In this document: positions 21,297 to 36,251 of the stretch, one piece after another
How the letters are laid out: each line of letters begins with the position of its first letter
How positions within the stretch are numbered: position 1 is the stretch's first letter
Assembly: GCA_025356475.1 (NCBI GenBank)
Contig: JANXSX010000176.1
Coordinates: forward strand, 1-56,410
DNA from: Isosphaeraceae bacterium
GTDB taxonomy: Bacteria > Planctomycetota > Planctomycetia > Isosphaerales > Isosphaeraceae
Reading direction: 5' to 3'
Length of the DNA stretch: 56,410 nt
The notes under the pieces: generated by a model
The model's input: the letters and a program-made list of their open reading frames with translations, nothing else
Database searches by the model: none
Told to the model about the DNA's origin: nothing
Translations under genes and position numbers: made by a program

Positions 21297-22658
21297 CTAT
21301 TCTTTCACGGGTAACAATTCCTGATCTATCAGAGTCACACTCTTCGTCGAGAAGCCTGCGCCAGACGCGGTCGTAACGGTATGTTCGGCTGGGAGATCAA
21401 GGCCCGCGACACGCTGCCAACGATCACGCACGGTTTCCACTCGATCGAGGCTGCCTGTCTTCGCGTCCCAGTACTGGACCAGATACCCGCGTGGCAGAGA
21501 ACGCCCTTCAGAATTCCGCTCATTCTCAAGCGTCGTGATTGTCATGTTTGACTTGCCGACATGACGGTTCACCGTGGTAATCGCGCCATCTTTGATGCGA
21601 TAGCTCGACGCAAACCGACCACCGTCGAACGTGAGAAGTCGACCAAGAGGATGGCTCTCATTGGCATCAGCGAAGCGAAGGACCGGCTTCGGAGTGGGAG
21701 TCGAACTCGTCTTGCGATGCATTACCAAGGAGCTGAGCTGATCGGTGACCCAGTCGTGGGCTGTCGGGTCATCGACATCGACATTGATCGTCCCGCCGGG
21801 CTCAACGGTCAGCTTACCGTTGAAGGCTCGTCCGTCCAGGTCACCATTGAGGTTCGCCTTGAAGCCTGGGAAGTCGGTCCCCCACTGCGCCCGATCGGCA
21901 ACGGCCTGCTCGAACAGGCTTACAGCCTCGGGATCGGCCCCCTCGCGAACGAGCGGCCAGTCAAATGCGATCGTGGCGAAGTCGCGAATTTCGGTGTAAT
22001 GCTTGCCATCATGATCGCCATCAACCTTTGTGTCGTGACGAATCATGACAGAATATCGCCCAGGTGTGGGCGGAGTCCACTGGATCGTCCCATCGGCACC
22101 TGCCTTGATGGTACTGTTGCTCAAGTCTGAGTCAATAGTTGTAAAGACTGCTGACGCAAGCGGCTCACCCTTCAGGAACGCTTGCAACTCGATCGCCTTG
22201 CCCCCATCCACGATCTTGGGAGCGATTTCCAGCGGGGTTCCGCTCAGTCCCTTGAACCCGTTGATCTCGTCGGGCTTGCCGGCGATTCCCTTGGCATAAT
22301 GACGGAGCAGAAACGCCGGCTTAGGTGTCGGACCGCCGAGGACTCCGTAGACGCAATCCGCATAGACACTCATTGCCCCGCTAGCCGGCACCGTTGCACG
22401 GACTCGGTCCGAAGCCACCGAGGCCTTCAAGGTCTCAAATTGTCCCGACTCGGTCTGAATCCTCAACGACGTTCCCGCCGCGACCTTGGCGATGTAGCGA
22501 GGGTCGCCCGCCTCCGCAAATTCGCTGAAATAGACTTCCGCCGACCGGCCCCCTTCTGCCATCGGCCCGACCTTGATGAACAAGAAGTGGGCATGTGAAT
22601 GAGAGGCAAGGGTAGCAATGGTGAACAGACTCAGACTGATGGCTCGGATGCGGTTCAT
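21297..22658 (-). CDS. Secreted DUF4198-DUF3386 protein at end of respiratory locus
   Basis: 453 residues from the ATG at 22658 (GGAG 8 nt upstream). A signal peptide MNRIRAISLSLFTIATLA ends around HSHAHF. The N-terminal half resembles DUF4198-type beta-sandwich proteins linked to metal uptake (LQAFLKGEPLASAVF, TPPTPGRYSVMIRHD). The C-terminal about 200 residues resemble DUF3386 (WGTDFPGFKANLNGDLDGR; DWVTDQLSSLVMHRKT). Its start lies 71 bp after the P1B ATPase stop on the same strand. Position and the DUF4198 part suggest a role in metal handling for the oxidase, but this is an inference. An upstream extension to 22757 overlaps the ATPase gene and has no support. Confidence 0.75.
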   Translation of the reverse strand: MNRIRAISLSLFTIATLASHSHAHFLFIKVGPMAEGGRSAEVYFSEFAEAGDPRYIAKVAAGTSLRIQTESGQFETLKASVASDRVRATVPASGAMSVYADCVYGVLGGPTPKPAFLLRHYAKGIAGKPDEINGFKGLSGTPLEIAPKIVDGGKAIELQAFLKGEPLASAVFTTIDSDLSNSTIKAGADGTIQWTPPTPGRYSVMIRHDTKVDGDHDGKHYTEIRDFATIAFDWPLVREGADPEAVSLFEQAVADRAQWGTDFPGFKANLNGDLDGRAFNGKLTVEPGGTINVDVDDPTAHDWVTDQLSSLVMHRKTSSTPTPKPVLRFADANESHPLGRLLTFDGGRFASSYRIKDGAITTVNRHVGKSNMTITTLENERNSEGRSLPRGYLVQYWDAKTGSLDRVETVRDRWQRVAGLDLPAEHTVTTASGAGFSTKSVTLIDQELLPVKE

Positions 22659-22729
22659 GGCGAATACTCCAGTCGGTTCGTTGCCACAGTGGCTCAATAG
22701 TTTTACCCAAAATCGATGCCTGAGCCAAG

Positions 22730-25414
22730 TCAAACTCGGATAAAGCACTCTGTGCATTTCAAACTAGCGGGATGAGCGATCTGCATCCCCGCGACCATCC
22801 CGGCCAGCATCGCAGCGTCGGAACCGAAGAGATTCCACGACATGCGTTCTGCCAAGACTGCACCCGCCGCCATGCCGATCACCATTCCCACATGCCCCGC
22901 GATTAACTCAAACCATCCCATTGGAGGCCGCTGCTGGTCTCGGCCCAATCTCGTCATTGCAACATGCCCAAGAGTGATCATGCCTATCCACATTCCGGGG
23001 GCCACCGAACCCGAGAAGCACTGGCACCTCGACACCGGTTGAAATCCTCCGCTCACCCACCAACCGAGCAACATCCCCGTATTCCCGAGCGTCGCCATCC
23101 CAAACGCCATATCAACCACATGTGGAATCGAGCTCCAACCGATCCAAAGCCAAACGACGACAATCGCCAATACAATCGAGGCGATCGTCAGATCCAAGCC
23201 CGATAGAAAACCGACATCAGACAGAAGCCCAAGTAACGGACCCTGAACCGCAAGCGAAAGAAAATGGAATGTTGCATGGGCGCGAAGAGAGTGATCACGT
23301 GCTTGAGCCGGCAACTCAATTCGATCCTCAGCGACTTTACCAGCGGACCGTTCCCACAGCGATGTGACAGGTAACGATCGACTGAGAACCGATGAACCCT
23401 CTTCATGTTCGAGTCGGCTCACCCGTGAAACGACCCAGAGGCTTGAACCCACCATCAAGAACGCAGCCATGATCGGGTGAAGCAGGCCACATACAGCAAT
23501 CAACATGCCAATGGCATTATAGACTGCGGCTGTGAGGATTGTCCGGCGCACGAGTTGAACAACCTTGCGACTGAAGCCAATCGACCAAGCCAGGGTTTCG
23601 AGGTCATCGCCAAAGAGTGTGGCCGAGGCTATGACTGTGGCAAGCTCCGACCCTGATGCGGGTGCGATCGAGACGAATGCCTCAGCAATTGCAGGTGCGT
23701 CGTTCAGCCCATCGCCGACAAATAACGGGAGATGCCCCTGAGCTTTACAGTCCGCAACGATCTGTCGCTTTACTTCCGGTGAAAGGTTGCTAATGGCCTG
23801 AGGCCAGCCCGCTTGTGCAGAGTGCGCAGAGGTATCGCCTGTCAACACATCAAGATGAAGACCAAGAGATCTAAGCTTGGCCACTCCAGCCGCCGCCGAC
23901 CCCCGAGGGGTCTCAGCGAGACTTACCATTCCGCACAATCGATCATTAATGGCTATGAACACTTGTCGATTTTCATCGACAACATTCACTGCCAAAGACT
24001 CATCAACATCGGCAACCCATTCGCGACGTCCGACACGGAGCATATGGGGATCATTCGTCCCAACCTGTACGAGTGCCTCGACCCCCGAGCCGGCTTCGAC
24101 ACGCCGGCGGAGGATCTTAAAATCTTCTGGGATAGGACTCATCCCGACGAACGAGCGAAGCACTGGGTGCGAGTCGTCGCGACCAAGAGCCGCTAACCAG
24201 CCGCGTAGTTCATCTCGTGTGATTGGGATGTCGTCGGAAGTGACCAAGTCGACTACGAGGAGTCGGCCCTCGGTCAACGTGCCCGTTTTATCGATGAAGA
24301 CTGTGTCGACTTGCGATAGGCGTTCAACAAGGTCGCCGTCTCGAGCGACCAATCCCCGTTTCGCCAATTTGCCGAGGCTGGTCCAGACGATGACCGGAGT
24401 CGCGAGTCCGAGCGCGCAAGGGCAGGCAACCAACAAGACTGATAACGCATGAAACAGCCCGATATCGACGCCGGAATGCCAGCTCCAGCCGGTGAACGTG
24501 GCGAGAGCGACCATTGAGACCACAGGTAGAAAGATTCCTGACAATCGATCGGCTTGACGTTGCAGAGAACCAGGCTGGGATCGAGCACTATCAACGGCCT
24601 CGATCAATCGATCCACTCGTCGATGATCACCTTCGCACTCAGCGCGAATCCAAATATCGGCATCTTCACAAGCGGTACCAGCCCAGACATGATCACCCGG
24701 CCTCCGAACCACGGGAGCCGCCTCGCCACTGAGCAACGCCTCGCGAACGAAGGCCGAGCCTGACACGATCACGCCGTCGATCGCTAAGATTTCACCAGGA
24801 GAAACCAGAACAAGATCACCTGGCCGAATGGAACGGACATCCACTCGCACTGGTGCCCCTGATGCATCAACACGGCGACACGTGCGGGGAACGTCGAGCC
24901 AGGCGAGCGATGATGTAATCGCTCTCGCTTTGCTGCGTGCAGCGACGGATCGACCCAACGTATACACCACAAGAAGAACCGCCACGACCTCAGTGTAGAT
25001 CGGTCCTCTGCCGCGATTCATCGACTGGATCGAGATTCCCAGAGATCCCACGATCCCCGAGATAAACAGAAGCTCGACTTGAATCTTTCCATGGATCAGT
25101 GCTCTGATCGCTTCCATGGCGAGCGGCGCGCCGAGCAGGATAGCGACACCCAGGTTCGCGACCAGCACGATCGCCTGTAATCGATGCAATGTCGATGGTT
25201 CTGGAGGTGAAAGGTTGATCGCCAGCGAGAGCACCATCGACTGCGCTGCGACGAGGATTCCGACTCCGAGCCGCACTGGTAAACTTGCCCCAACTCCATT
25301 CTCACTCATGGACTGGCAGGTGCGACTGCAGAAACGTGCGTGGTCTCCCGAGGGGTGCTCGTGATCTGGTCCACGCAGAGGGACTTGGCAGTAATGACAT
25401 GTCGATGAGGTCAT
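22730..25414 (-). CDS. P1B-type copper-transporting ATPase (CcoI/FixI-like) with extra C-terminal membrane domain
   Basis: 894 residues. The N-terminus has a Cys cluster (CHYC ... FCSRTC) in place of a ferredoxin-like metal-binding domain. The P-type core has the A-domain LLSGEA, the membrane metal motif LLVACPCALGLATP, the phosphorylation site DKTGTLTEG, an HP motif (DDSHPVL) and the hinge VGDGLNDAPAIAEA. The core ends near residue 690. About 200 further residues follow, with five or so hydrophobic segments rich in Met and His (GMWIGMITLGHVAMTRLG, GHVGMVIGMAAGAVL, MLAGMVAGMQIAHP) and a terminal CTEC. That extension is not part of ordinary CcoI. It is in the oxidase operon, 14 bp after the cytochrome c gene, so copper delivery to the CcoN active site is the likely role. 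Confidence 0.88.
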   Translation of the reverse strand: MTSSTCHYCQVPLRGPDHEHPSGDHARFCSRTCQSMSENGVGASLPVRLGVGILVAAQSMVLSLAINLSPPEPSTLHRLQAIVLVANLGVAILLGAPLAMEAIRALIHGKIQVELLFISGIVGSLGISIQSMNRGRGPIYTEVVAVLLVVYTLGRSVAARSKARAITSSLAWLDVPRTCRRVDASGAPVRVDVRSIRPGDLVLVSPGEILAIDGVIVSGSAFVREALLSGEAAPVVRRPGDHVWAGTACEDADIWIRAECEGDHRRVDRLIEAVDSARSQPGSLQRQADRLSGIFLPVVSMVALATFTGWSWHSGVDIGLFHALSVLLVACPCALGLATPVIVWTSLGKLAKRGLVARDGDLVERLSQVDTVFIDKTGTLTEGRLLVVDLVTSDDIPITRDELRGWLAALGRDDSHPVLRSFVGMSPIPEDFKILRRRVEAGSGVEALVQVGTNDPHMLRVGRREWVADVDESLAVNVVDENRQVFIAINDRLCGMVSLAETPRGSAAAGVAKLRSLGLHLDVLTGDTSAHSAQAGWPQAISNLSPEVKRQIVADCKAQGHLPLFVGDGLNDAPAIAEAFVSIAPASGSELATVIASATLFGDDLETLAWSIGFSRKVVQLVRRTILTAAVYNAIGMLIAVCGLLHPIMAAFLMVGSSLWVVSRVSRLEHEEGSSVLSRSLPVTSLWERSAGKVAEDRIELPAQARDHSLRAHATFHFLSLAVQGPLLGLLSDVGFLSGLDLTIASIVLAIVVVWLWIGWSSIPHVVDMAFGMATLGNTGMLLGWWVSGGFQPVSRCQCFSGSVAPGMWIGMITLGHVAMTRLGRDQQRPPMGWFELIAGHVGMVIGMAAGAVLAERMSWNLFGSDAAMLAGMVAGMQIAHPASLKCTECFIRV

Positions 25415-25428
25415 AGATGCCTCGTCGC

Positions 25429-26154
25429 TCAGGGCTTCGCGCGTTGGGCAGGTTTCTCGACCGGGGCTGCAACCTTGTCTTCCGAGGTGATTGCCATGAG
25501 CTCTCCCGCATTCCAGGCGTTCGAGTGATCCTTGGTCGCCTCACGCGCGGCTGCGATCGACTCGGTCGTGATCGCCTCAGCTTGATTGCCCCACTCTTGA
25601 CGGAGGTATGTGAGCACTGCTGCGATTTGTTCATCCTTGAGCTTCGTCCCAAACGCGGGCATATTTCCGTTGTAGGTCTGATCTAGTACTTTGACATCGC
25701 CTTGAAGCCCTTGTAACAGGATCCGACTGAGGCGAGCTGCAGAACCAGCAACCCATTCGGACTTGGCCACTGGCGGGATTGCTCCAGCTTGCCCCATACC
25801 GTTGGCTTGATGGCATGATACGCATCCCTGAGTGGCGTACAGTCGCTTACCAACAGCGATGGGATCGACGGGCTTTTGGTCCTTCTTCGCGGACGCGCCG
25901 ATGGCTGGGCGCCGCTCTTCATAAATATCAGCGCGGAAGTCTCCGCTATAACGTTGAAGATACATGCCACCCATGAAAACAACGATCCCGAAGATGCCCG
26001 CCATCCAGGGGGGGATCGGCTCAAACCCATCTCGTGGATCCGCCTTCTCCCGCATGATCGGAGCGTGTAAGCCCTGAACATCGTGGCCCTCACCTGTCTC
26101 GACCTGACCGCTAAATTGGCTTTCCGATCTGCCGGGAGAATTGGCTGAGCTCAC
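25429..26154 (-). CDS. Membrane-anchored monohaem cytochrome c of the cbb3-like oxidase
   Basis: 241 residues from a GTG (GGAG 8 nt upstream), starting 2 nt after the ccoO stop. The N-terminal about 45 residues are cytoplasmic, then comes one transmembrane segment (PWMAGIFGIVVFMGGMYL). A cytochrome c domain follows with haem motif CVSCH near residue 110 and a distal Met in YNGNMPAFGTKLKDEQI. The tail is an Ala- and Lys-rich extension. CcoP of classical cbb3 oxidases has two haems; this protein has only one CxxCH. It takes the CcoP position and probably passes electrons from the complex III side or a soluble carrier to CcoO. Confidence 0.88.
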   Translation of the reverse strand: MSSANSPGRSESQFSGQVETGEGHDVQGLHAPIMREKADPRDGFEPIPPWMAGIFGIVVFMGGMYLQRYSGDFRADIYEERRPAIGASAKKDQKPVDPIAVGKRLYATQGCVSCHQANGMGQAGAIPPVAKSEWVAGSAARLSRILLQGLQGDVKVLDQTYNGNMPAFGTKLKDEQIAAVLTYLRQEWGNQAEAITTESIAAAREATKDHSNAWNAGELMAITSEDKVAAPVEKPAQRAKP

Positions 26155-26156
26155 AG

Positions 26157-26774
26157 TTATTGCTCCTCGGCTTCGGGCAACGGAGTGGTATGGTCAAGAG
26201 CCTGGAGGTAAGCAACCAGAGCCTTGGCATGATCCGATGGAACGATTTCATAACCATCTGCGAGCGGATAACCTTTAGGAATCGGCAGAGCATCAACCGA
26301 CTTCTGGCCCACGATCTTCCGCGTCTCATAAAGGAACGAGAACGGTGACATGATCGAGCCGGGCGAGGTCCAAGTGGGGTTGAATAGGTGACGGTGATGC
26401 CACTGGGCGCTCGGTTGCCGGGCACCAATGTTCGCCAGGTCAGGCCCGGTGCGCATCGAACCTAACAGGTGGGGACTGTCATAGATGTAGTCGCGAGCCA
26501 CCGTGCGTCGCGGTCCCCAACCTCGCGCGATATCGGTACCGAATCGTTCGGACCGAATCTGTTGACTGTGACAATAAATGCAACCGTTTACGCGATAGAT
26601 CACTCGGCCTTGAGCCGCGAGCCCGCCGAGTGGTCGGGGATAGGCGTCTCCTCCCTCCGCAGGAACGACCGGGGCAAGGCCGCTGAGCTGTGCGTAAGGG
26701 GCGAAGATAAGCCCAAGCCACGCGCTAGCGAAGACCAGAAAGACCCCTAAAAAGATGGCCGGTGCGTTATTCAT
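26157..26774 (-). CDS. ccoO: cbb3-type cytochrome c oxidase monohaem subunit II (CcoO-like)
   Basis: 205 residues; the ATG overlaps the ccoN stop by one base (TGATGA). An N-terminal anchor AIFLGVFLVFASAWLGLI is followed by the haem-binding region NGCIYCHSQQIRSERFGTD, which is diagnostic of CcoO. The typical RTGPDLANIGAR and the distal-Met region PGSIMSPFSFLYE are also present. It carries electrons into the binuclear centre of CcoN. Confidence 0.92.
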   Translation of the reverse strand: MNNAPAIFLGVFLVFASAWLGLIFAPYAQLSGLAPVVPAEGGDAYPRPLGGLAAQGRVIYRVNGCIYCHSQQIRSERFGTDIARGWGPRRTVARDYIYDSPHLLGSMRTGPDLANIGARQPSAQWHHRHLFNPTWTSPGSIMSPFSFLYETRKIVGQKSVDALPIPKGYPLADGYEIVPSDHAKALVAYLQALDHTTPLPEAEEQ

Positions 26775-28243
26775 CAGTGCGAACTCCCGAGGACTGGCGG
26801 TGCCTGGGCCGATTCGGTAGCGACGTTATCATCGTTATCGCCAAGTAGGGTCGGTTCCGTGCGACGTTCCCCAAGATGCAAGAGGTTCATGGCGAAGAGG
26901 GCCGCGAAGACCAAGTGGCCTGTTGTCATCAGGACTCCTGAAAACGTCCGGGACCAGAGGTAGGGAATCGTCCGCTTCATGATCGTCATGAACGGGAGGT
27001 CCGAGTCATTCAACTCGATCCCCTGCATCAACCCTCCCCAAGTCAAAATCGTCCAGTACGACCCAATCCCCAAAGCGGTGGTCCAGAAGTGAATCTTGAT
27101 CATCCGGGACGAGGCCCATTCCCAGCCTGTGAGTCGTGGCATAATGTAGTAAATGCATCCGAACATGACCATTGAGAAGAACCCATAGAGTCCCAGGTGT
27201 GCATGCGCGACGGTATAATGAGTGAAATGTGTCACCTGGTTCAAGGTTCGGAACGATTGAGACATCCCCTGAAGGCTCACCGCCGTGTAGCACATCGAAC
27301 CGAAGACGATGAACCGCAATGTTGGGCTATATTTGAGCACGTGAAAATAACCCCACATAGTCATGTGATGATTAATTGCCACCGCGCCGACCGGGATGAT
27401 CATCATACCGCTCGCAACGCTGCTTACGGTTACGAGCCACGCCGGCACAGGCCCGCCGATTAAGTGGTGCGCACCGTTCCAATTGTAAAATAGGGCGAGC
27501 GCCCAGAATCCCAGGATCGATAGGTAGTAACTATGGATTGGGCGTCCAATCACTTTCGGGATCAGATAGTACGCTGCCGCCAGGCCGATCGGGGTGAACC
27601 AGAGACCGAGCGCATTATGACCATACCACCAGTTGACCGAGGCCTGAGTCACTCCGGTGATCGGCTGGTAAACCATCAATAGGTTGGTGACTGTATAGAG
27701 CCATGGGAACCAGAAAATCGCGCCAAAAAGATACCATTGTGAAACGTAGACGTGCTTCTCACGACGGTCGCGAAATGTCACCACGGCCCACACCCCGACT
27801 ATCGCATAGGCAGCCACCAAGATCGGTGGGACATAAGGCGGAAACTCGAGCCACTCGATTCCCGAACTCTGCCCAGACAGGATGCCGACGATCCCTAACA
27901 AAATCCCGACGTTCCAGATCCCTCCTGCAACTGCCAAGAGCCACGGATAACGTAACTCCGCGCGTGAGAGCCTGGCCATTAGCCAGAGTAAAACACCAAT
28001 GCCCGCCATTGATGCCCAGCCATAGGCCACGGCATTAAGATGAGCTGGCCGGACACGTCCGAACGTGAGCCAAGAGGTCGATGCAAGAAACCCCGGTGTA
28101 TGCATCTTGATCGAGGCCAGGATCGCCAAGAATGACCCGGTAACCAGCCAGAACACGGCACTGGTGAAGAACACTAAGACAGGGAGTCGCGTCGATGCAT
28201 CAATCGATACACGTCGATCCGGCGGGCGAGTTACGAGACTCAT
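26774..28243 (-). CDS. ccoN: cbb3-type cytochrome c oxidase catalytic subunit I (CcoN-like)
   Basis: 489 residues with about 12 transmembrane helices. It has the conserved features of the C-family haem-copper oxidases: the haem b His in RVRPAHLNAVAYGWASMAG, SVNWWYGHNALGLWFTP (CuB His region), NGAHHLIGGPVPAWL, and HFTHYTVAHAHLGLYGF near the haem ligands. It reduces O2 to water and pumps protons. The start overlaps the ccoS stop by ATGA. The C-terminal tail after MNLLHLGERR is longer and acidic. Confidence 0.94.
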   Translation of the reverse strand: MSLVTRPPDRRVSIDASTRLPVLVFFTSAVFWLVTGSFLAILASIKMHTPGFLASTSWLTFGRVRPAHLNAVAYGWASMAGIGVLLWLMARLSRAELRYPWLLAVAGGIWNVGILLGIVGILSGQSSGIEWLEFPPYVPPILVAAYAIVGVWAVVTFRDRREKHVYVSQWYLFGAIFWFPWLYTVTNLLMVYQPITGVTQASVNWWYGHNALGLWFTPIGLAAAYYLIPKVIGRPIHSYYLSILGFWALALFYNWNGAHHLIGGPVPAWLVTVSSVASGMMIIPVGAVAINHHMTMWGYFHVLKYSPTLRFIVFGSMCYTAVSLQGMSQSFRTLNQVTHFTHYTVAHAHLGLYGFFSMVMFGCIYYIMPRLTGWEWASSRMIKIHFWTTALGIGSYWTILTWGGLMQGIELNDSDLPFMTIMKRTIPYLWSRTFSGVLMTTGHLVFAALFAMNLLHLGERRTEPTLLGDNDDNVATESAQAPPVLGSSH

Positions 28244-28437
28244 CGAAACTTCTCCACTTGCCCGGTTGGAAAGCCATCAGTCCGCAATCCGACCGGCTCA
28301 TCATCATCAAAAATCGAGGTGGCCGCCCCGTTCAGATCGTCAAGCTGGCCCGCACGAACCGACCAAGACAGTCCCCAGACGGCAGTACCACCGAAGATGA
28401 ACGCGCAGGCCATCCAGATGATTTCCGTGAGCGTCAT
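28240..28437 (-). CDS. ccoS: cbb3-type oxidase assembly protein CcoS
   Basis: 65 residues: a single transmembrane helix (MTLTEIIWMACAFIFGGTAV) followed by SVRAGQLDDLNGAATSIFDDDE, the CcoS signature (R-x-G-Q-x-D-D-L ... DDD). CcoS is needed to insert haem b and CuB into CcoN. It overlaps the genes on both sides (ATGA at each junction). Its presence shows the locus carries assembly factors as well as structural genes. Confidence 0.9.
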   Translation of the reverse strand: MTLTEIIWMACAFIFGGTAVWGLSWSVRAGQLDDLNGAATSIFDDDEPVGLRTDGFPTGQVEKFR

Positions 28438-28817
28438 TTTGGCTCCTTTGAGAGTCCTAGAGCCTTCGAATTGGCTGCGTCTGCGGCCTGAAGTTCCATC
28501 GCCCGCTCAATAGGGATGTAGGCCGTTTTCGCTTTGAAATCAACCCAGCCGTACGTTGTTAATCGTTTCTGATCTTCGCTTTGGCGTTCGCGCAACTTCT
28601 GTTCAGGCGATAATTGGGTACTATCAACTTTCGCTGGTGAGGCGATCAGAAACATGAGTTGGACGATCCCGATAAAGAGCAAAAGCCCGATTGGTACGAC
28701 AATCACGGTCCCGATCGGCCAAGTTTTCGGGCCTTCGTCATCATCTTGAGACGGCGAACGATCGGGAGTCTCGCGTGCTTGTGGCGTACCCGCAGTTTGA
28801 GTCGAAGATTCGGACAT
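28434..28817 (-). CDS. Small membrane protein between actF and ccoS
   Basis: 127 residues. An acidic, disordered N-terminus is followed by one transmembrane helix (WPIGTVIVVPIGLLLFIGIV, about 33-58). The C-terminal domain contains QKRLTTYGWVDFKAKTAYI and IPIERAMEL, a motif seen in small proteins encoded beside cytochrome oxidases, where YGWVD and IPI-RAM are conserved. Its job is unknown; a link or assembly role between complex III and the oxidase is an inference from position. The start is an ATG with purine-rich GGGGGAAAGTAGGG upstream. Confidence 0.75.
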   Translation of the reverse strand: MSESSTQTAGTPQARETPDRSPSQDDDEGPKTWPIGTVIVVPIGLLLFIGIVQLMFLIASPAKVDSTQLSPEQKLRERQSEDQKRLTTYGWVDFKAKTAYIPIERAMELQAADAANSKALGLSKEPK

Positions 28818-28835
28818 CCCTACTTTCCCCCTGAG

Positions 28836-30017
28836 TCAAGAGCTGTGAAATGCGAGCGATTCGCTCAGCCGAGGATCTCCGACAGGGACCAGCGGCTTGC
28901 CCAGGCTCAACCACGTTGTCAGTGCGAGCGTTCCTGAAAGCATGGCCACGGGGATTGTGAGGTCAAGCCAGTGGACCCGGACGCCCTCGGAATGGAGTGT
29001 CGGCATGACTAACCAGTACATGTCCACATAGTGAAATAATAAAATCCAAGCCGCCGCAAAGCCCAGAATCGGAGCATTCCTCTTGAACGTTCGGGGCATC
29101 AGCAATAGAAAAGGGACGAGAAATTGACCGATCGCCAACGACCAACTCAGTCCGTTCCAACTTCCTGTCCGTCGGGCGATGAAGTATGACGTCTCTTCAG
29201 GTAAGTTGGCGTACCAGATCAAGAAGTATTGAGAGAATGCGATGTAGGCCCAAAAAATCGTGAAGCCGAACATCAGCTTACCCAGGTCGTGCAAGTGCTC
29301 GGTTCTGATCGTGTTTCGTAACCAGCCCGCAGCATGCAACCCCAGGATAGCGAGGGTCAGTAAGGCCAGGGAGCCGACGATCGATCCCGCCCAAAAATAG
29401 ACTCCGAAGATCGTTGACGACCATGTGGGTTCGAGCGACATCAGCCAGTCGAAAGAGGCGTAGGTTGTCGTAAGCGCCAGTACGATTAATCCCGGTGCGC
29501 TGGCACCTTGCATCCGCTTCGAGCTTGCAGGATCGGCGGTCGCATCTTGACGCGACGATGTCGTCGCCAACCACCATGCGAGGCCCGACCAGATCAAGAG
29601 ATAAATGGCTCCTCGGATGGCGAAGAACGGAAGATTCAGCCAGGATTGCTTCGCGAGTACACTCTCTTCGACCGAGGTTGTCCAGCGGTAAACCAGCTCC
29701 GCGTTCATGACGATTGGAACGAACAGCACTAATAGGAGGGGCAGCGACTTTGAATAGTTCTCGAGGAGGCGTCGCAGGACAACCGACCAGCCGGCGTCCG
29801 TAATATGGTGGATCATGATCCAGAAAAGCGTACCTGTGCCTAAACTCGCGATAAATGTAAAGCCAGTCAGATATGAAAAGCCAAACTGACGTTGATTTGA
29901 CGCCAGACCTAGCATCGAGAGCAAACCAAGGCCCAGAGAGAGACTGATCAATCCGAAGAGTAATCGCCAACCACGCGGTCGGGGAACAGAGAGTTGGTCG
30001 TTTGAACTGACTTTCAT
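28836..30017 (-). CDS. actF: Alternative complex III subunit ActF
   Basis: 393 residues with about ten transmembrane helices and no cofactor motif, as expected for the ActF membrane subunit of the quinol:cytochrome c oxidoreductase (alternative complex III). Recognisable stretches are SYLTGFTFIASLGTGTLFWI, YASFDWLMSLEPTWSSTIFG and FWAYIAFSQYFLIWYANLPE. The ATG overlaps the actE stop (ATGA). ActF is paralogous to ActC and lies in the membrane part of the complex. Confidence 0.92.
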   Translation of the reverse strand: MKVSSNDQLSVPRPRGWRLLFGLISLSLGLGLLSMLGLASNQRQFGFSYLTGFTFIASLGTGTLFWIMIHHITDAGWSVVLRRLLENYSKSLPLLLVLFVPIVMNAELVYRWTTSVEESVLAKQSWLNLPFFAIRGAIYLLIWSGLAWWLATTSSRQDATADPASSKRMQGASAPGLIVLALTTTYASFDWLMSLEPTWSSTIFGVYFWAGSIVGSLALLTLAILGLHAAGWLRNTIRTEHLHDLGKLMFGFTIFWAYIAFSQYFLIWYANLPEETSYFIARRTGSWNGLSWSLAIGQFLVPFLLLMPRTFKRNAPILGFAAAWILLFHYVDMYWLVMPTLHSEGVRVHWLDLTIPVAMLSGTLALTTWLSLGKPLVPVGDPRLSESLAFHSS

Positions 30018-30670
30018 TGGTTGAGCTCCGCGCGGGCTGAGGCGGGAATATCGTTTACCGAGGCATTCTGGCTTCGCTGGAGGGCTCGGATGTATGCAAC
30101 AATTGCCCAGCGATCGCGGACCGCAACCTGATGGCCATAAGCGGTCATTGTGTTTTTGCCATTCGTAATGGTGTTGTAGATCTCGCCGTCGGGCATGGTA
30201 CGGATTCGGTTATCGTGATAACTCGGCACCCCCATAAGTCCATATTGCGTTGTGATGCCGTTAGCAAACCCAGTCGCTCCATGACAAACTGCGCAGTGGA
30301 TGTTGAAACGTTCACGGCCTCGTCGCAATAACGGAAGATCGACCTCGATCGGAGCCTTTGATACGAATGTCTTCCCGACCTTGCCTCGATAGAATGCATC
30401 ATCTTCAGCGAGTAGATCCCCATTCTTACGGGGCGATCCCGCGTCGCTGAAGTAATCGAGCCCACCGAATGCAACGACGCCGGCGGGGGTCGGACGCATC
30501 GTCCGGCCATCCGCAAAGAATGCACTCTCAGCCTGGGCGTCGTACCTTGGCTGAATATCCATGTCGGGAATAAGCATTAACGGACGCCGCACCGAGGTCA
30601 TTCCTCGCCAGCCCATAAGGGCAATAATCAGGAGGATTACGGCGAGAAACCCGGCAAGTACCCAACGCAT
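30014..30670 (-). CDS. actE: Alternative complex III monohaem cytochrome c subunit ActE
   Basis: 218 residues with an N-terminal transmembrane or lipid-anchor segment (MRWVLAGFLAVILLIIALMG) and an exported domain. That domain carries one haem motif CAVCH near residue 128 and a distal Met region YGLMGVPSYHD. The stretch RRPLMLIPDMDIQPRYDAQ is typical of ActE. It takes electrons from the ActA/ActB branch and passes them towards the oxidase. Confidence 0.92.
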   Translation of the reverse strand: MRWVLAGFLAVILLIIALMGWRGMTSVRRPLMLIPDMDIQPRYDAQAESAFFADGRTMRPTPAGVVAFGGLDYFSDAGSPRKNGDLLAEDDAFYRGKVGKTFVSKAPIEVDLPLLRRGRERFNIHCAVCHGATGFANGITTQYGLMGVPSYHDNRIRTMPDGEIYNTITNGKNTMTAYGHQVAVRDRWAIVAYIRALQRSQNASVNDIPASARAELNQ

Positions 30671-30674
30671 CGGG

Positions 30675-31211
30675 TTAGTCCTCCATGTCGAGTGTAGTCA
30701 CGTCATGCCCGCCACAGGACGCGAGTAGCTCCGAGATCGCTTGCCGATCCTGGGGTACTTCGAAAATCCTTACCGTCAAAAAGAAGCCATCATTTGTTGC
30801 TCGTGAGAACGTCGGCACATCAAATAGAGGGTGATGAAGTCGCGGCAATCGATTGAAGAGAAACATACCACCAATGGCGCTGAATGCTGCGAATAAGATC
30901 GTCATTTCAAATGTGATCGGAATCCAGGCCTCGCGACTATCGTAGGGCTTACCGCCGACAATCAGAGGATATTCAACAACACTCAAATACCATTGCACAA
31001 GATACCCGGAAATCGCTCCGAACAACCCCCCTACCAGGACGACCCAAGGAAGCTTCGACCTTTGACGACCGAGGGCTTCGTCGATCCCATGGATAGGGAA
31101 TGGTGTGTAGGCTTCGATTTCTGAGAAACCTGCCTCCCGTAAGGTTCGGATTGCAGACATCAAGTGGTCTGGACTGTCGAAGCGAGCGATCGCGCCTGTG
31201 GCTGACTTCAT
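30675..31211 (-). CDS. actD: Alternative complex III subunit ActD (DUF3341)
   Basis: 178 residues of the DUF3341 family: the N-terminal ferredoxin-fold-like part [20 protein letters not shown] and [16 protein letters not shown], then two transmembrane helices ([40 protein letters not shown]), and a C-terminal soluble part VFEVPQ-like ending in [15 protein letters not shown]. The ATG overlaps the actC stop by ATGA. It is a peripheral structural subunit of the complex with no cofactor. Confidence 0.92.
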
Positions 31212-32602
31212 GACGCCGCCCTTTCGACATGTTGCATCTCGTGATTCTGGTCGGAGAGCACGGCTTTGACCTCGCTAAGAGCGACGATCGGCACGAACCT
31301 CACGAAGATGAGAAAGAGCGTGAAGAAGAGTCCGAACGTGCCAATAAACTCGAAAATATCCACCCAGGTCGGCACGAACATTCCCCAGCTTGACGGTAAG
31401 AAATCCCGGTGAAGACTAGTAACAATGATCACGAACCGCTCGAACCACATGCCAATATTTACGAAAATTGAGATGACGAACATGATCCAAGGTGTCGTCC
31501 TCGCCTTCTTGAACCAGAAAATCTGCGGGCTGAGTACGTTGCAGGTCACCATCACCCAGTAGGCCCATCCATAAGGGCCGAACGCTCTATTCATGAACGT
31601 GAATCGCTCATACGGATTACCACCATACCAGGCGATGAAGAACTCGGTACTGTAGGCATAACCGACCATGAGACCGGTCGCGAGCAAGATTTTGCAGATA
31701 TTCTCAAGATGCCGAGTTGTCACGATGTTTTCTAGCCCGAAGATCACACGTGACGGGACCATCAATGTGAGAACCATCGCAAATCCCGAAAACACTGCCC
31801 CAGCCACAAAGTAGGGGGGAAAGATCGTCGCGTGCCAGCCCGGTAGGATTGAGGTGGCAAAATCCATACTGACAATCGTATGAACACTGATGACAAGAGG
31901 TGTTGCAATTCCTGCGAGAAGTAAGTAAGCCATCTCATAATGTTGCCAGTGTCGGGCTGCGCCACGCCATCCCAAGGCGAAAAAGCCGTAGATTCGTTGG
32001 CGAAGCCCTGGGGCGGCTCGATCGCGCAACGTGGCGAGATCGGGAATCAAGCCAACGTACCAGAAGAGTAATGACACAATGGCATACGTGGACACGGCCG
32101 CCACGTCCCACATCAATGGGCTACGGAAGTTGGGGTAGATCGCGTTCGCATTAGGAGCGGGGAAGAGCCACCACATCAGCCAGACACGACCTAAGTGGAT
32201 GAGTGGATAAATCCCAGCGCATGCCACTGCGAAGAGTGTCATTGCCTCAGCGAATCGGTTGATACTCGTCCGCCACTTCTGCCGGAACAAAAAGAGTATC
32301 GCTGAGATCAACGTTCCCGCGTGACCGATCCCGATCCAGAAAACGAAGTTGGTAATATCGAATGCCCAGCCGACCGGACTGTTCAGGCCCCAGACACCAA
32401 TTCCCGTCGAGATGAGGTAGGCGGCCATCCCGACTCCGACGCTTAACACCGTGAGGCTCGTCAGGAACGCGGGCCACCACCACTTGGGTGTCGATGCTTC
32501 GGTGATGCCGCTAACCAGATTGGTGAGCGAGCCGAAGGTCTGACCCCCCTGGACAAGGGCGACTCGTCCCCCAGGGCGGGCTGGCACATGAATTTCACTC
32601 AT
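31208..32602 (-). CDS. actC: Alternative complex III membrane subunit ActC (NrfD family)
   Basis: 464 residues of the NrfD/PsrC membrane family with about ten helices. Recognisable parts are [40 protein letters not shown] (conserved [10 protein letters not shown] of ActC), [20 protein letters not shown] and [15 protein letters not shown]. In this family ActC holds the quinol-oxidising site facing ActB. Both junctions overlap by ATGA (actB stop, actD start). Confidence 0.94.
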
Positions 32603-35600
32603 GCGTGGCCTCCTGGCTGGCTCATCTTCGGGTTAGGATTCTTCAGTCTCGCTCCGTACGTGGTGCGTGGTTTCGTATTGAGCTCACCGAGCAAGGCATA
32701 ATCACGTTGGTTGGCCTTCAACTGGGAGACTCGACTCTTAGGGTCGGAAATATCACCGAACACGATGGCTTGAGCAGGACAGGTTTGGGCACAGGCTGGG
32801 GTGATTGTTCCGTCGGGAATCTTGCCTGGTACGGAATCGGCCGCCGCGACTTTGACGCCAATTTTGGCCCTTTCGACGCGTTGAACACAGTAGGTACACT
32901 TTTCCATCACGCCCCGAATCCGGACGGTCACGTCAGGATTCTTCTGCATTTGCAGGGTCTCCGGCATCCCCTTTTCCGCGAACGGTCCCAACCGCAACTG
33001 ATCGAGCGGTCGCTCATTGTAGTTAAAGAAGTTAAAGCGGCGAACTTTATATGGACAGTTATTGGCGCAGTAGCGTGTACCAACACAGCGGTTGTAGACT
33101 TGAAGATTCAATCCATCTAGGCTGTGAACGGTGGCATTGACCGGGCAAACAACCTCGCAGGGGGCGTTCTCACACTGGACGCAGGCCACAGGTTGGTGAA
33201 CCATTCCTGGGTCATCTTCCTCGCCCGAGAAGTATCGATCGTTGCGAATCCAATGCATCTCTCGACCGAGTGCCACTTCGTCTTTGCCAACAATCGGGAT
33301 ATTGTTCTCAGCTTGACAGGCGACCATGCAGGCGTTACAGCCGATGCACGAATTCAGGTCGATCGCCATCCCCCATTGATGTTCACCAGTGAACTCAGGT
33401 TGTGGATAAAGTGCTCCACGCTCCTCGATTTCGCTGCGATGTTTCGACCACTCCTCGGCCTTCCCCACTAGATCCTCAAGGCTGACCTCGCGAACGATAT
33501 CACGCCCCTCCATCGTGTGATGGTCTTGAGTACGCACTAGCTTATGGGTCTTGCCGGTCTTCGCAATCGTAAGCCCGGTCGCAAAGCCTGGACTCCGGCT
33601 CGTTCGGAGGGGATAAGCATCGAATCCAACGTGGCGACCGACGCGCCCGGTGACTTTTCGTCCGTATCCAAGGGGTACGGCTACTGTGAATTCAGCCTGG
33701 CCCGGCATCCGGAGCGCAGCGATTTCAACCGAACGTCCATTGAGGGTAAGCTTGAGCATATCGCCATCTTTGATCCCCATCGCGTCGGCGGTCTTGGGGC
33801 TCAGGGCAGCGGCGTTGTCCCAGACCAGTTTCGTGACAGGATCGGGGCACTCCTGCATCCAGCCGTTGTTGGCGAATCTCCCATCGTCGAGACTGGAATC
33901 GCGTTGATAGACCAGCTCCAGATTCTGGGCCGAGAGGGGTGGCAAGGGATCGGGTAGAACCAGGGGAGTCGGGCTCAACGTCACCTCCTGAGGCTTTGTA
34001 CCCGACCCTTCAAGGAAACCGTCGTGAAGGAATCTTCTCCAAGCAGTCTCGAAGTCATCATTGGCCGTGAACGATTTGAAGGCTTCGCGAACGACTTCGT
34101 AAGCGGAGTGCGTTTTGTAGCCGCTAATCCTTGCCACCAGCTCGATTGCAGTCATTCCGTCGAACAGTGGTTCAATCTGTGGCTGGATGGCCAGCAAAGA
34201 TCCATCACTCGCTCGGCAATCGCCCCAAGATTCAAGAGGATGAGCCTGGGGCACATGCCATTTTGCGAGTTCTGATGTCTCATCAACATGAAGGCCGAGG
34301 CGAATGACAGTCTCAGCCTTACCGATCAACTCCCCTAACCCCAAGTCAGCAGGAGCATCGTAGGCAGGGTTCCCTCCCAGAATCACCAGAGTCGTCACCT
34401 TTCCGGCTTTGAGATCGTCGGCAAGGCTCTGGATTGATCCCGCCGGCTCGGAGTTTTCGGTCGGAGAGAACGCGACCGTTTTGCCGATGTTCCCGAGCTT
34501 GGCATTGATCGAATAGGCCAAGGCGTGAACCGCAACGGGTTGGCGGTGGCCCACGACGACCAAACTCTGACCTGGCTTGGACAGCAGATCAGCCGCGACT
34601 TCATCGATCCACTTCAAGTCGCCAGGGGGTGTCCACGTGGACTGCTCCGTCCCCATGACCCCGAGTGACTTAGCGAGGGCGAAGAGATAGCCATGGGCAG
34701 AACTTGCCGGAAGCCGAAGTCTGTGATCGGCCATTGCCCCGGTCAGGGTGAAATGAGGTTCGACCACGTAGAGACGATTCATGGCTTCGGTCGATCGAGC
34801 CTTGGCAAAGCCCCGGATCTGGGCGATGTCGCCATCCCCTGCCCCCAGGAAGTCACAATCCACCGCGACTACGACCGATGCGTCATGGAACTTGTATTGC
34901 GGCTTGACTGGTGTTCCAAAGGCGCGACTTCCGGCTTCGACAGCGTTCGCATTGTCGATCGGAGTATAGGTATGCCAAGATGCGTGCGGCAACGTCCTCT
35001 TGAGATGCGATTGAAGCAGCAAGATCGAGGGCGCATCACTCGGCTCTGCCAGAATGCGGAACCCTTCGCCGCCAGTCGCTGCAAGAGATTTCGACTTGGT
35101 GGCGAGCAGGTCGACGAGTGTCTCGATTGTTGAGGGAAGACCACCGAAGACGACGGTTCGCGATCGATCGGGGTCATACAGGTCGAGTACGGAAGCCTGT
35201 GCCCACGCGTCGGCAGCTCCCTGCGTCAGAGGGTGGTTGGGATGCCCTTCGATCTTGGTTGGACGACCTTCATGGGTCTCGACCAGAATCGGCACGGAAC
35301 CGTTCGGTCGGGGCAACGCGGTGGCGTAATAGGTGGGCAGTCCGGCAATGACGTTCTCTTGCTTCTTAGCGTAGGGCAAGATTTTGATCGATGGCCGTCG
35401 GCAACCCGTCAACCCGGCAAGGCTAAGCGAGGCGGCCATGAGTGTTAGAAACTTACGCCGATCAATCGCGCCATCAAGTAACTCACTCATTGATGCGGGA
35501 TATGTCTTCAAGACGAACTCACGGAACTCGGCGGTATCCGCGAGTTGATCGAGGCTCCGCCAGTAGACTTGGCCGCAGGCCAGATTCGCAGGCTGTTCTA

Positions 35601-35610
35601 GCGATGGCAC
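32599..35610 (-). CDS. actB: Alternative complex III iron-sulfur subunit ActB
   Basis: 1003 residues starting from GTG at 35610 (GGAG 8 nt upstream; another GTG at 35619 is less well placed). A Tat-like signal [20 protein letters not shown] is followed by a Cys in a lipobox-like LTGC, suggesting a Tat-exported, lipid-anchored protein. The first part is a molybdopterin-oxidoreductase-like fold that in ActB has lost its cofactor. The C-terminal ferredoxin-like part has the cluster-binding Cys series [40 protein letters not shown] and CTYCVQR. The start lies inside the end of actA (overlap of about 13 bp). Confidence 0.94.
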
Positions 35611-36251
35611 GCCGAGCACTCCACCGGGGCTTTGATCCCGTACTGTTGTTGAATTTGCTTGCCAACTTCGGACTGGGTTTGGCCAAGGAGTGGCTTCCAG
35701 TCGAGTTGATAGACATGTTCATTTGGGCGGAGGTTTTGTTCGGGATGGCGATGGCAGTCGAGGCACCAACCCATACTTAACGGCTTGTCGTGTCGAACGA
35801 CAGTCATCTCATTGACCTTGCCGTGGCAGCTCACACAGCTTACGCCCCGGTTGACATGGACCGAGTGGTTGAATTGAACGTAGTCTGGAACTTGATGGAT
35901 ACGTTCCCAGGCTAGCGGGTTGCCATTGCTATAACTTTCGCGGACGAGAGTCAATAAAGGACTCGTCGCCTTGATAGCGGTGTGACAATTCATGCACGTT
36001 TGAGATGTTGGTACATTGGCATGTGGTGATTGTTCGACATTCGTATGGCAATAGAGACAGGACATGCCGAGTTGTCCCACATGCTGAGCGTGAGAGAAGG
36101 CCACAGGTTGGCTTGGGGCATATCCAACCCTGGTGTACTCAGGTGGGCCATAGTAATAGACGCACGTCACCAGAAGGGCTCCGCCCAGAACCAAACTTAG
36201 AAAGATTCGACCGAGCCAAACATCCGCGCTCGGTGTGAAGACTTGCGGCAA
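35598..36251 (-). CDS. actA: Alternative complex III pentahaem cytochrome c subunit ActA
   Basis: Five CxxCH haem motifs are visible: CLYCH, CMNCH, CVSCH, CLDCH and CSACH, the last at the extreme C-terminus. One transmembrane anchor lies near the N-terminus (LGRIFLSLVLGGALLVTCVY). The open frame can be extended to 36389, but that part is Arg/Lys-rich and unlike the family. A TTG at 36251 gives the expected N-terminus (PQVFTPSADVW) and is preceded by GGGAGGGAGAG, so it is the preferred start (217 residues). It is the first gene of the long respiratory operon; electrons flow from its haems to ActE. Confidence 0.9.
   Translation of the reverse strand: MPQVFTPSADVWLGRIFLSLVLGGALLVTCVYYYGPPEYTRVGYAPSQPVAFSHAQHVGQLGMSCLYCHTNVEQSPHANVPTSQTCMNCHTAIKATSPLLTLVRESYSNGNPLAWERIHQVPDYVQFNHSVHVNRGVSCVSCHGKVNEMTVVRHDKPLSMGWCLDCHRHPEQNLRPNEHVYQLDWKPLLGQTQSEVGKQIQQQYGIKAPVECSACHR

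Follow-up and report, generated by a model that had tools for sequence, protein, structure and literature searches.

A methionine-rich six-helix membrane domain at the C-terminus of a CcoI-like copper ATPase encoded with a cbb3 oxidase in an Isosphaeraceae bacterium

The copper ATPase gene and its operon

The window analyzed here, the whole 56,410-nucleotide stretch of DNA from an Isosphaeraceae bacterium, carries on its reverse strand an alternative-complex-III/cbb3 operon comprising actB-F, a 127-aa open reading frame, ccoN, ccoO, ccoP, and, as its last gene, an ATPase encoded by a single intact open reading frame of 894 aa. The features at the locus, all on the reverse strand (-), are as follows.

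28434..35619 (-): 127-aa open reading frame with actF, actE, actD, actC, and actB (ActD, NrfD, cytochrome c, and 4Fe-4S matches)
26774..28243 (-): ccoN, the catalytic subunit that would hold CuB (COX1 match)
26157..26774 (-): ccoO (FixO match)
25429..26154 (-): ccoP-like cytochrome c gene, directly upstream of the ATPase gene (Cytochrome_CBB3 match)
22730..25414 (-): whole ATPase gene, CcoI-like P1B copper ATPase plus C-terminal six-helix tail, 894 aa
25286..25414 (-): N-terminal Cys cluster, C-x2-C...C-x3-C, residues 1-43 (from the sequence; no HMA match; pLDDT below 50)
23399..25285 (-): ATPase core, residues 44-672 (CPC at 331-333, DKTGT from 375, YN at 632-633, MxxSS at 654-658)
23309..23398 (-): variable linker, residues 673-702 (low model confidence)
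22733..23308 (-): Met-rich six-helix tail domain, residues 703-894 (alignment of relatives, predicted structure)

The matches to COX1, FixO, and Cytochrome_CBB3 bear out the cbb3-like character of the adjacent oxidase that had been proposed in an earlier, sequence-only reading. The 127-aa open reading frame and actF had no Pfam match, and some act genes, actF among them, were named by gene order. Downstream of the ATPase gene lies a gene (21297-22757, -) that matches DUF3386 (E 3e-32) and, weakly, DUF4198, and for which no match was found in 37 loci, some with little downstream sequence; if translation is taken to begin at the first ATG, its reading frame shares 28 bases with the end of the ATPase gene, and the true start may be a Met further on, ahead of a signal-like stretch.

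Judged by its domains and motifs, the gene product is a CcoI/FixI-like (CopA2-type) P1B copper ATPase of a known kind with an added tail. Assignment to the P1B heavy-metal ATPases follows from the presence of the E1-E2 ATPase and hydrolase (HAD) domains (PF00122, 142.6 bits; PF00702, 65.4 bits), the DKTGT motif, and a score of 382.2 bits against the family model TIGR01525 (cut-off, 346.25; residues 114-664 covered), and assignment to the P1B-1 Cu(I) subgroup follows from CPC in M6, YN in M7, and MxxSS in M8. Except for the first Ser, these Cu(I)-type membrane motifs were invariant in eight aligned proteins (C331, P332, C333, Y632, N633, M654, and S658). The score against the copper-translocating model TIGR01511 was 331.3 bits, below its cut-off of 397. 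The best PDB match of the full-length structural model (pLDDT 76.5, with values below 50 at residues 1-43 and 673-701; pTM 0.62) was the copper ATPase 4bbj (E 2.4e-35).

The sequence-only reading had described an N-terminal Cys cluster in place of an HMA domain. The four Cys are present in the window protein (C6-x2-C9...C29-x3-C33), Pfam and NCBIfam scans found no HMA domain (CopZ-like N-MBS2) there, and, of the 14 relatives in alignment A4 whose start is intact, 10 share the CxxC...CxxxC pattern, all ten in the form CxxC...YCCxGC. The family identity of the cluster is less firmly drawn: among six N-termini scanned, only that of L011 had matches to a TRASH model (E 0.0056) and to ATPase-cat_bd (PF12156; E 0.0087); neither reached its cut-off, and zinc-ribbon models followed closely. 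The window N-terminus matched zf-FCS alone (E 1.7), and the remaining four had no match. An own-genome paralogue, L110, has an HMA-like start, by eye. The window pump resembles the Rhodobacter capsulatus CcoI/FixI (CopA2-type P1B-1) in its Cu(I) motifs, adjacency to ccoNOP, and N-terminal Cys motif. In the available text of PMC8475189, TM8 is the last CcoI helix named, whereas the window protein continues into a six-helix tail, and the CopZ-like N-MBS2 and ccoGHIS cluster described in the available part of PMC7558416 contrast with the lack of an HMA match in the window protein and of CcoG-, CcoH-, or CcoS-like genes among the 10 neighbors scanned in the window.

The C-terminal tail and its conserved residues

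An extra region C-terminal to the CcoI-like core had been noticed in the sequence alone, and it was confirmed. The solved copper ATPase 3rfu aligns with residues 135-666, and solved copper ATPases reach residues 651-666; the P-type core ends at about residue 670 (664-672), the last core helix ends at residue 678 in the full-length model, and about 190 residues extend beyond the core. About five hydrophobic segments had been counted there; the AlphaFold model of the tail, based on a 27-row alignment (mean pLDDT 88.0, pTM 0.82), instead contains six long membrane helices, preceded by one short, less certain helix, and the six are retained in the full-length model. The elements of the second half of the tail are given below.

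23057..23116 (-): TM11, residues 767-786 (DMxxGMxTxGNxGMLLGWW; M769xxxM773; H765 just before)
22994..23056 (-): TM11-12 loop, residues 787-807, predicted periplasmic (CQC 797-799 at 23018-23026)
22943..22993 (-): TM12, residues 808-824 (MWxGM...[N/H]xAM; M808xxxM812)
22844..22903 (-): TM13, residues 838-857 (G[N/H]xGMxxGM; M844xxxM848)
22763..22819 (-): TM14, residues 866-884 (M869xxxM873xxxM877)
22745..22756 (-): terminal CTEC, residues 887-890 (absent from relatives)

Loops 10-11 and 12-13 and the C-terminus carry net charges of +1.4 to +2.1, compared with -1.0 to +0.04 for loops 9-10, 11-12, and 13-14 (mean for loop 11-12, -0.96), so that the former are predicted to lie inside and the Cys-bearing loop 11-12 outside, the segment preceding TM9, like loops 9-10 and 13-14, being near neutral and contributing little topological information. 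This arrangement agrees with the cytoplasmic location of the C-terminus of the P1B core.

Profile searches of the tail, which the sequence-only reading had proposed together with structure prediction, revealed no shared family. The window tail matched no Pfam or NCBIfam family at E values up to 1, and none was common to the 27 tails in Pfam (best, DUF456; one row, E 0.0067) or NCBIfam (best, TsgA of the MFS; 2 of 27 rows, E 0.0024); MFS families and PF02630 (SCO1/SenC) were absent among the Pfam matches of these tails at E values up to 10. PDB sequences yielded only two matches to the tail, both near E 1. A known fold was considered and set aside, as nothing stood out among the matches listed by Foldseek (none in the PDB at E 0.001 or better; best, 0.19) or VIA-align (4q2e, Z 6.5; TRIC channels, 5.7-6.1; AmtB, 4.5), Z values of a range that the VIA-align notes describe as common for helical bundles. 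The tail is thus a conserved membrane domain named by none of the libraries searched (Pfam, NCBIfam, and PDB), and the earlier remark that no described domain of such layout was known on a P-type ATPase held for these libraries and for the literature searched, in the available text of which no description of such a tail on a P1B ATPase was found.

Across the 27 aligned rows, 11 to 12 Met columns of the tail are conserved at a level of at least 85%, as are other residues, mainly Gly but also Trp, Leu, some Asn, D768, D788, H717, H765, and C799. Conserved Met columns are enriched in the tail (11 of 181) over the core (3 of 612; p 1.3e-5), as they are when only helices are compared (11 of 147 versus 3 of 245; p 0.003), and, from their helix positions, they appear to span the depth of the membrane. 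Five MxxxM pairs across TM11-TM14 occur in 27, 27, 25, 27, and 25 of the 27 rows; the probability of five such i,i+4 pairs by chance was 0.0011 in a simple simulation of four helices of 20 residues with three Met apiece. An MxxxM motif within a helix is also a feature of the Ctr copper transporters, which are three-helix trimers; no Ctr-like family was present among the Pfam families listed for the tail. HxxxM is found at the base of TM11 in 25 of 27 rows, and a second HxxxM, which the window protein lacks, precedes TM13 in 20 of 27. At least two Cys occupy the TM11-12 loop in every row, a conserved feature (CQC 797-799 in the window protein) missing from the sequence-only reading.

That reading had pointed to a tail dotted with Met and His and ending in CTEC. 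The emphasis on Met was justified; the conserved His are H765 (25 of 27 rows) and H717 (23 of 27), whereas 24 of 27 rows have Asn at the position of the helix residue H817 and 26 have it at that of H841, and these two His were rejected as conserved ligands. The terminal CTEC, private to the window protein, was discarded as a metal clamp. Similarity scores between TM11 and TM13 (16.1) and between TM13 and TM14 (15.3) exceed the maximum of 10.5 in 200 shuffles and suggest a repeated Met/Gly pattern, possibly arising from duplicated hairpins; a clean hairpin duplication was not retained, as TM13 also resembles TM14 and a general Met/Gly pattern is possible.

Distribution, oxidase linkage, and exceptions

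A tail query (residues 689-894) identified relatives in 10 of 59 panel genomes, its own included, and in 5 of 45 genomes of the order, a set partly overlapping with the panel; a whole-protein query against genome contigs found no relative. The profile from ten tails was then applied as a pattern scan to the genomes of 84,980 species and recovered 26 distinct tail loci, several of them apparently duplicates of panel loci. By title, 25 are planctomycete (14 Gemmataceae or its genera, presumed to include Fimbriiglobus; two Isosphaera or Singulisphaera; nine other planctomycetes) and one is Bacteroidales, in a scan that sees close motif matches only and from which a restriction to Planctomycetota is not to be read. 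Tail and DKTGT core share one open reading frame in 16 of the 26 loci, the core lies upstream in another frame in four (L023, L028, L040, and L041), and the contig begins inside the gene in six. The locus filed as Bacteroidales, L045, encodes a tailed ATPase with planctomycete-like neighbors, by eye, in a genome with ccoN, and is probably a mislabeled or mixed bin. The tail was present in 34 of 95 genomes of the family of G038 and, with either profile, in 3 of 392 genomes of an even phylum sample (union of both profiles: G000, G172, G228, and a weak G162), and it is therefore a minority feature; G228 and G172 lie outside the class.

The survey of related pumps, another of the checks proposed at the outset, revealed a recurrent ccoN-ccoO-ccoP-ATPase order among tail loci. 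In 13 of the 18 assessable loci, those of the 26 with enough upstream sequence, ccoP lies directly upstream (within about 330 bases), and in the remaining five (L028, L037, L041, L044, and L045) ccoN was invariably found elsewhere in the genome; L047 was left out of this count because its match is a KdpB gene and its contig starts inside the gene. With ccoN presence defined by E 1e-60 or better, and with kinship ignored, the 59-genome panel contained 10 genomes with tail and ccoN, one with ccoN only, none with the tail only, and 48 with neither. Kinship was likewise ignored in the finding that ccoN is present in all 19 tail genomes searched whole (10 panel genomes, G172, G228, and seven further genomes, represented by eight handles of which two are apparently one genome). 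The weak G162 match, if real, is an exception to this co-occurrence.

In genome G039, a tail-less ATPase (L092:13542-15734 (+)) ends after TM8 and is located approximately 1.4 kb past act and cco genes, and the window tail had no match in the genome; the occurrence of a tail-less pump next to this gene set shows that the tail can be dispensed with. In a phylogeny of 28 cores for which three own-genome paralogues were the sole outgroup, the G039 core falls within the operon clade (100/99), in an unresolved fork, and a decision between gain and loss of the tail was accordingly abandoned. In G513 (L106:5184-7919 (+)) the tail is decayed, with TM11-12 motifs lost and TM13-14 partly retained, and the actF-ccoNOP-ATPase order is nevertheless intact; in G279 (83% complete), ccoNOP is followed, by eye, by a dehydrogenase gene, and no tail match was found. 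A free-standing 210-aa open frame of G162 (L121:9258-9887 (-)) matches the tail profile at E 1.4e-5 over most of its length and has few Met motifs; we did not accept it as an established free-standing homologue, as the 17 genomes of its order contained no second match. In some Gemmata copies, the linker contains GC-rich, repeat-like sequence (L040:7880-7990; L015:9195-9400), with 14-mers that recur three to four times per locus in L040 and L015 and not in the L041 stretch checked. Tail and core are in different frames in L040, L041, and L102, which may reflect sequencing error, decay, or real gene splitting.

Possible roles of the tail

In the assembly of cbb3 oxidases, it has yet to be settled how copper travels from CcoI to the buried CuB site. 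According to the available text of PMC8475189, the Cu(I) destined for CuB of cbb3 oxidases is pumped by CcoI to the periplasmic side, the first periplasmic acceptor in R. capsulatus (SenC, PccA, or another) was unknown, and a fusion of SenC to the C-terminus of CcoI is fully functional; the part of PMC10732223 available names 'ccoII', not CcoI. Because a C-terminal domain with periplasmic Cys and Met-rich helices is kept with this oxidase, we suggest that the tail may be a built-in membrane acceptor or relay that takes up Cu(I) where it exits a CcoI-type pump, and we consider the chances of this to be about even. The suggestion builds on the domain, its conservation, predicted helices, and charge-based topology, and its operon and genome linkage, all directly supported; from these we infer Cu(I) binding, the direction of transfer, and contact with CcoN. 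On the periplasmic side, Cu(I) released by the pump would be captured by the TM11-12 loop Cys and the Met of TM11-TM14, from where it would reach either CuB in CcoN of the co-encoded cbb3 oxidase or the last chaperone of that oxidase. In this scheme, the tail would act as a covalent exit-side acceptor, the natural counterpart of the artificial CcoI-SenC fusion in Rhodobacter; SenC in that construct is a Sco-type chaperone joined via its N-terminal anchor helix, as far as the available text describes it, whereas the tail is a six-helix Met-rich membrane domain. Sco/SenC-like proteins were found in all 12 genomes searched (11 tailed genomes and G039), above cut-off in 11, which indicates that the tail adds to the usual chaperones and does not simply replace Sco, and a role as Sco/SenC replacement was dismissed. 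The exit-side copper module tied to cbb3 that the sequence-only reading envisaged retains its fit with the Met and Cys residues, topology, operon, and co-occurrence, and has lost the His and CTEC cues; copper binding by such a module would be a matter of inference. That the tail forms an undescribed metal-handling domain, in which Met-ladder hairpins and a periplasmic Cys clamp would hand Cu(I) straight to CuB inside the membrane and bypass soluble chaperones, we regard as improbable.

Several points weigh against a relay: the subthreshold TIGR01511 score, the full-length pTM of 0.62, the retention of gene order in G513 after loss of the TM11-12 motifs, the tail-less pump of G039, and the capacity of Met/Gly-rich helices simply to pack tightly. 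Such packing is central to the alternative in which the tail serves as a structural or docking module, holding the pump against the ACIII-cbb3 complex without metal, with Met, Gly, and Asn as packing residues or, in a variant, with the tail taking over a membrane-anchor role like that of CcoH or CcoS. Conserved Gly columns are as many as those of Met (13 versus 11), the helix similarities fit a structural repeat, the 10 neighbors scanned include no CcoG/H/S-like match, and extra "support" helices vary among P-type ATPases (PMC10654040, available text); since this module would leave unexplained both the loop Cys of all 27 rows and the five MxxxM pairs, we find it rather unlikely, in either form. 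Those same pairs recall the copper importers CcoA and CalT, which share MxxxM and HxxxM in membrane helices, CcoA serving a cbb3 oxidase; in the available text of PMC6362234, both motifs are required for copper uptake by CcoA and are good predictors of copper transport in its family. A tail resembling CcoA by motif, not by family, could thus be an importer module that supplies its own pump from the cytoplasmic side and combines uptake and export for cbb3 on one chain, and the spread of Met over the membrane depth and the weak fold likeness to TRIC (best Z, 6.1) and AmtB (best Z, 4.5) channels are compatible with this. Those importers are described as MFS carriers, however, whereas the tail had no MFS match in Pfam and is far smaller than a 12-helix carrier, the fold likeness is in the range common for helical bundles, and import fused to export looks futile unless tightly gated, all of which makes an importer very unlikely. 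We are equally skeptical of a copper sensor or autoinhibitor that gates the pump: metal sensing and regulation are possible functions of the terminal metal-binding domains in P1B ATPases, but those described in the available parts of PMC11970713 and PMC10654040 are cytosolic, and the tail lies in the membrane and has Cys that are predicted to face outside.

The tail adds a membrane, not a soluble, accessory domain to P1B ATPases, and the natural pump-tail fusion, together with its tail-less counterpart in G039 as a natural control, makes the CcoI-to-CuB step directly testable. A minor peculiarity of the window protein is that it alone has His at both 817 (22964-22966, TM12) and 841 (22892-22894, TM13), perhaps a lineage-specific ligand swap and perhaps a coincidence.
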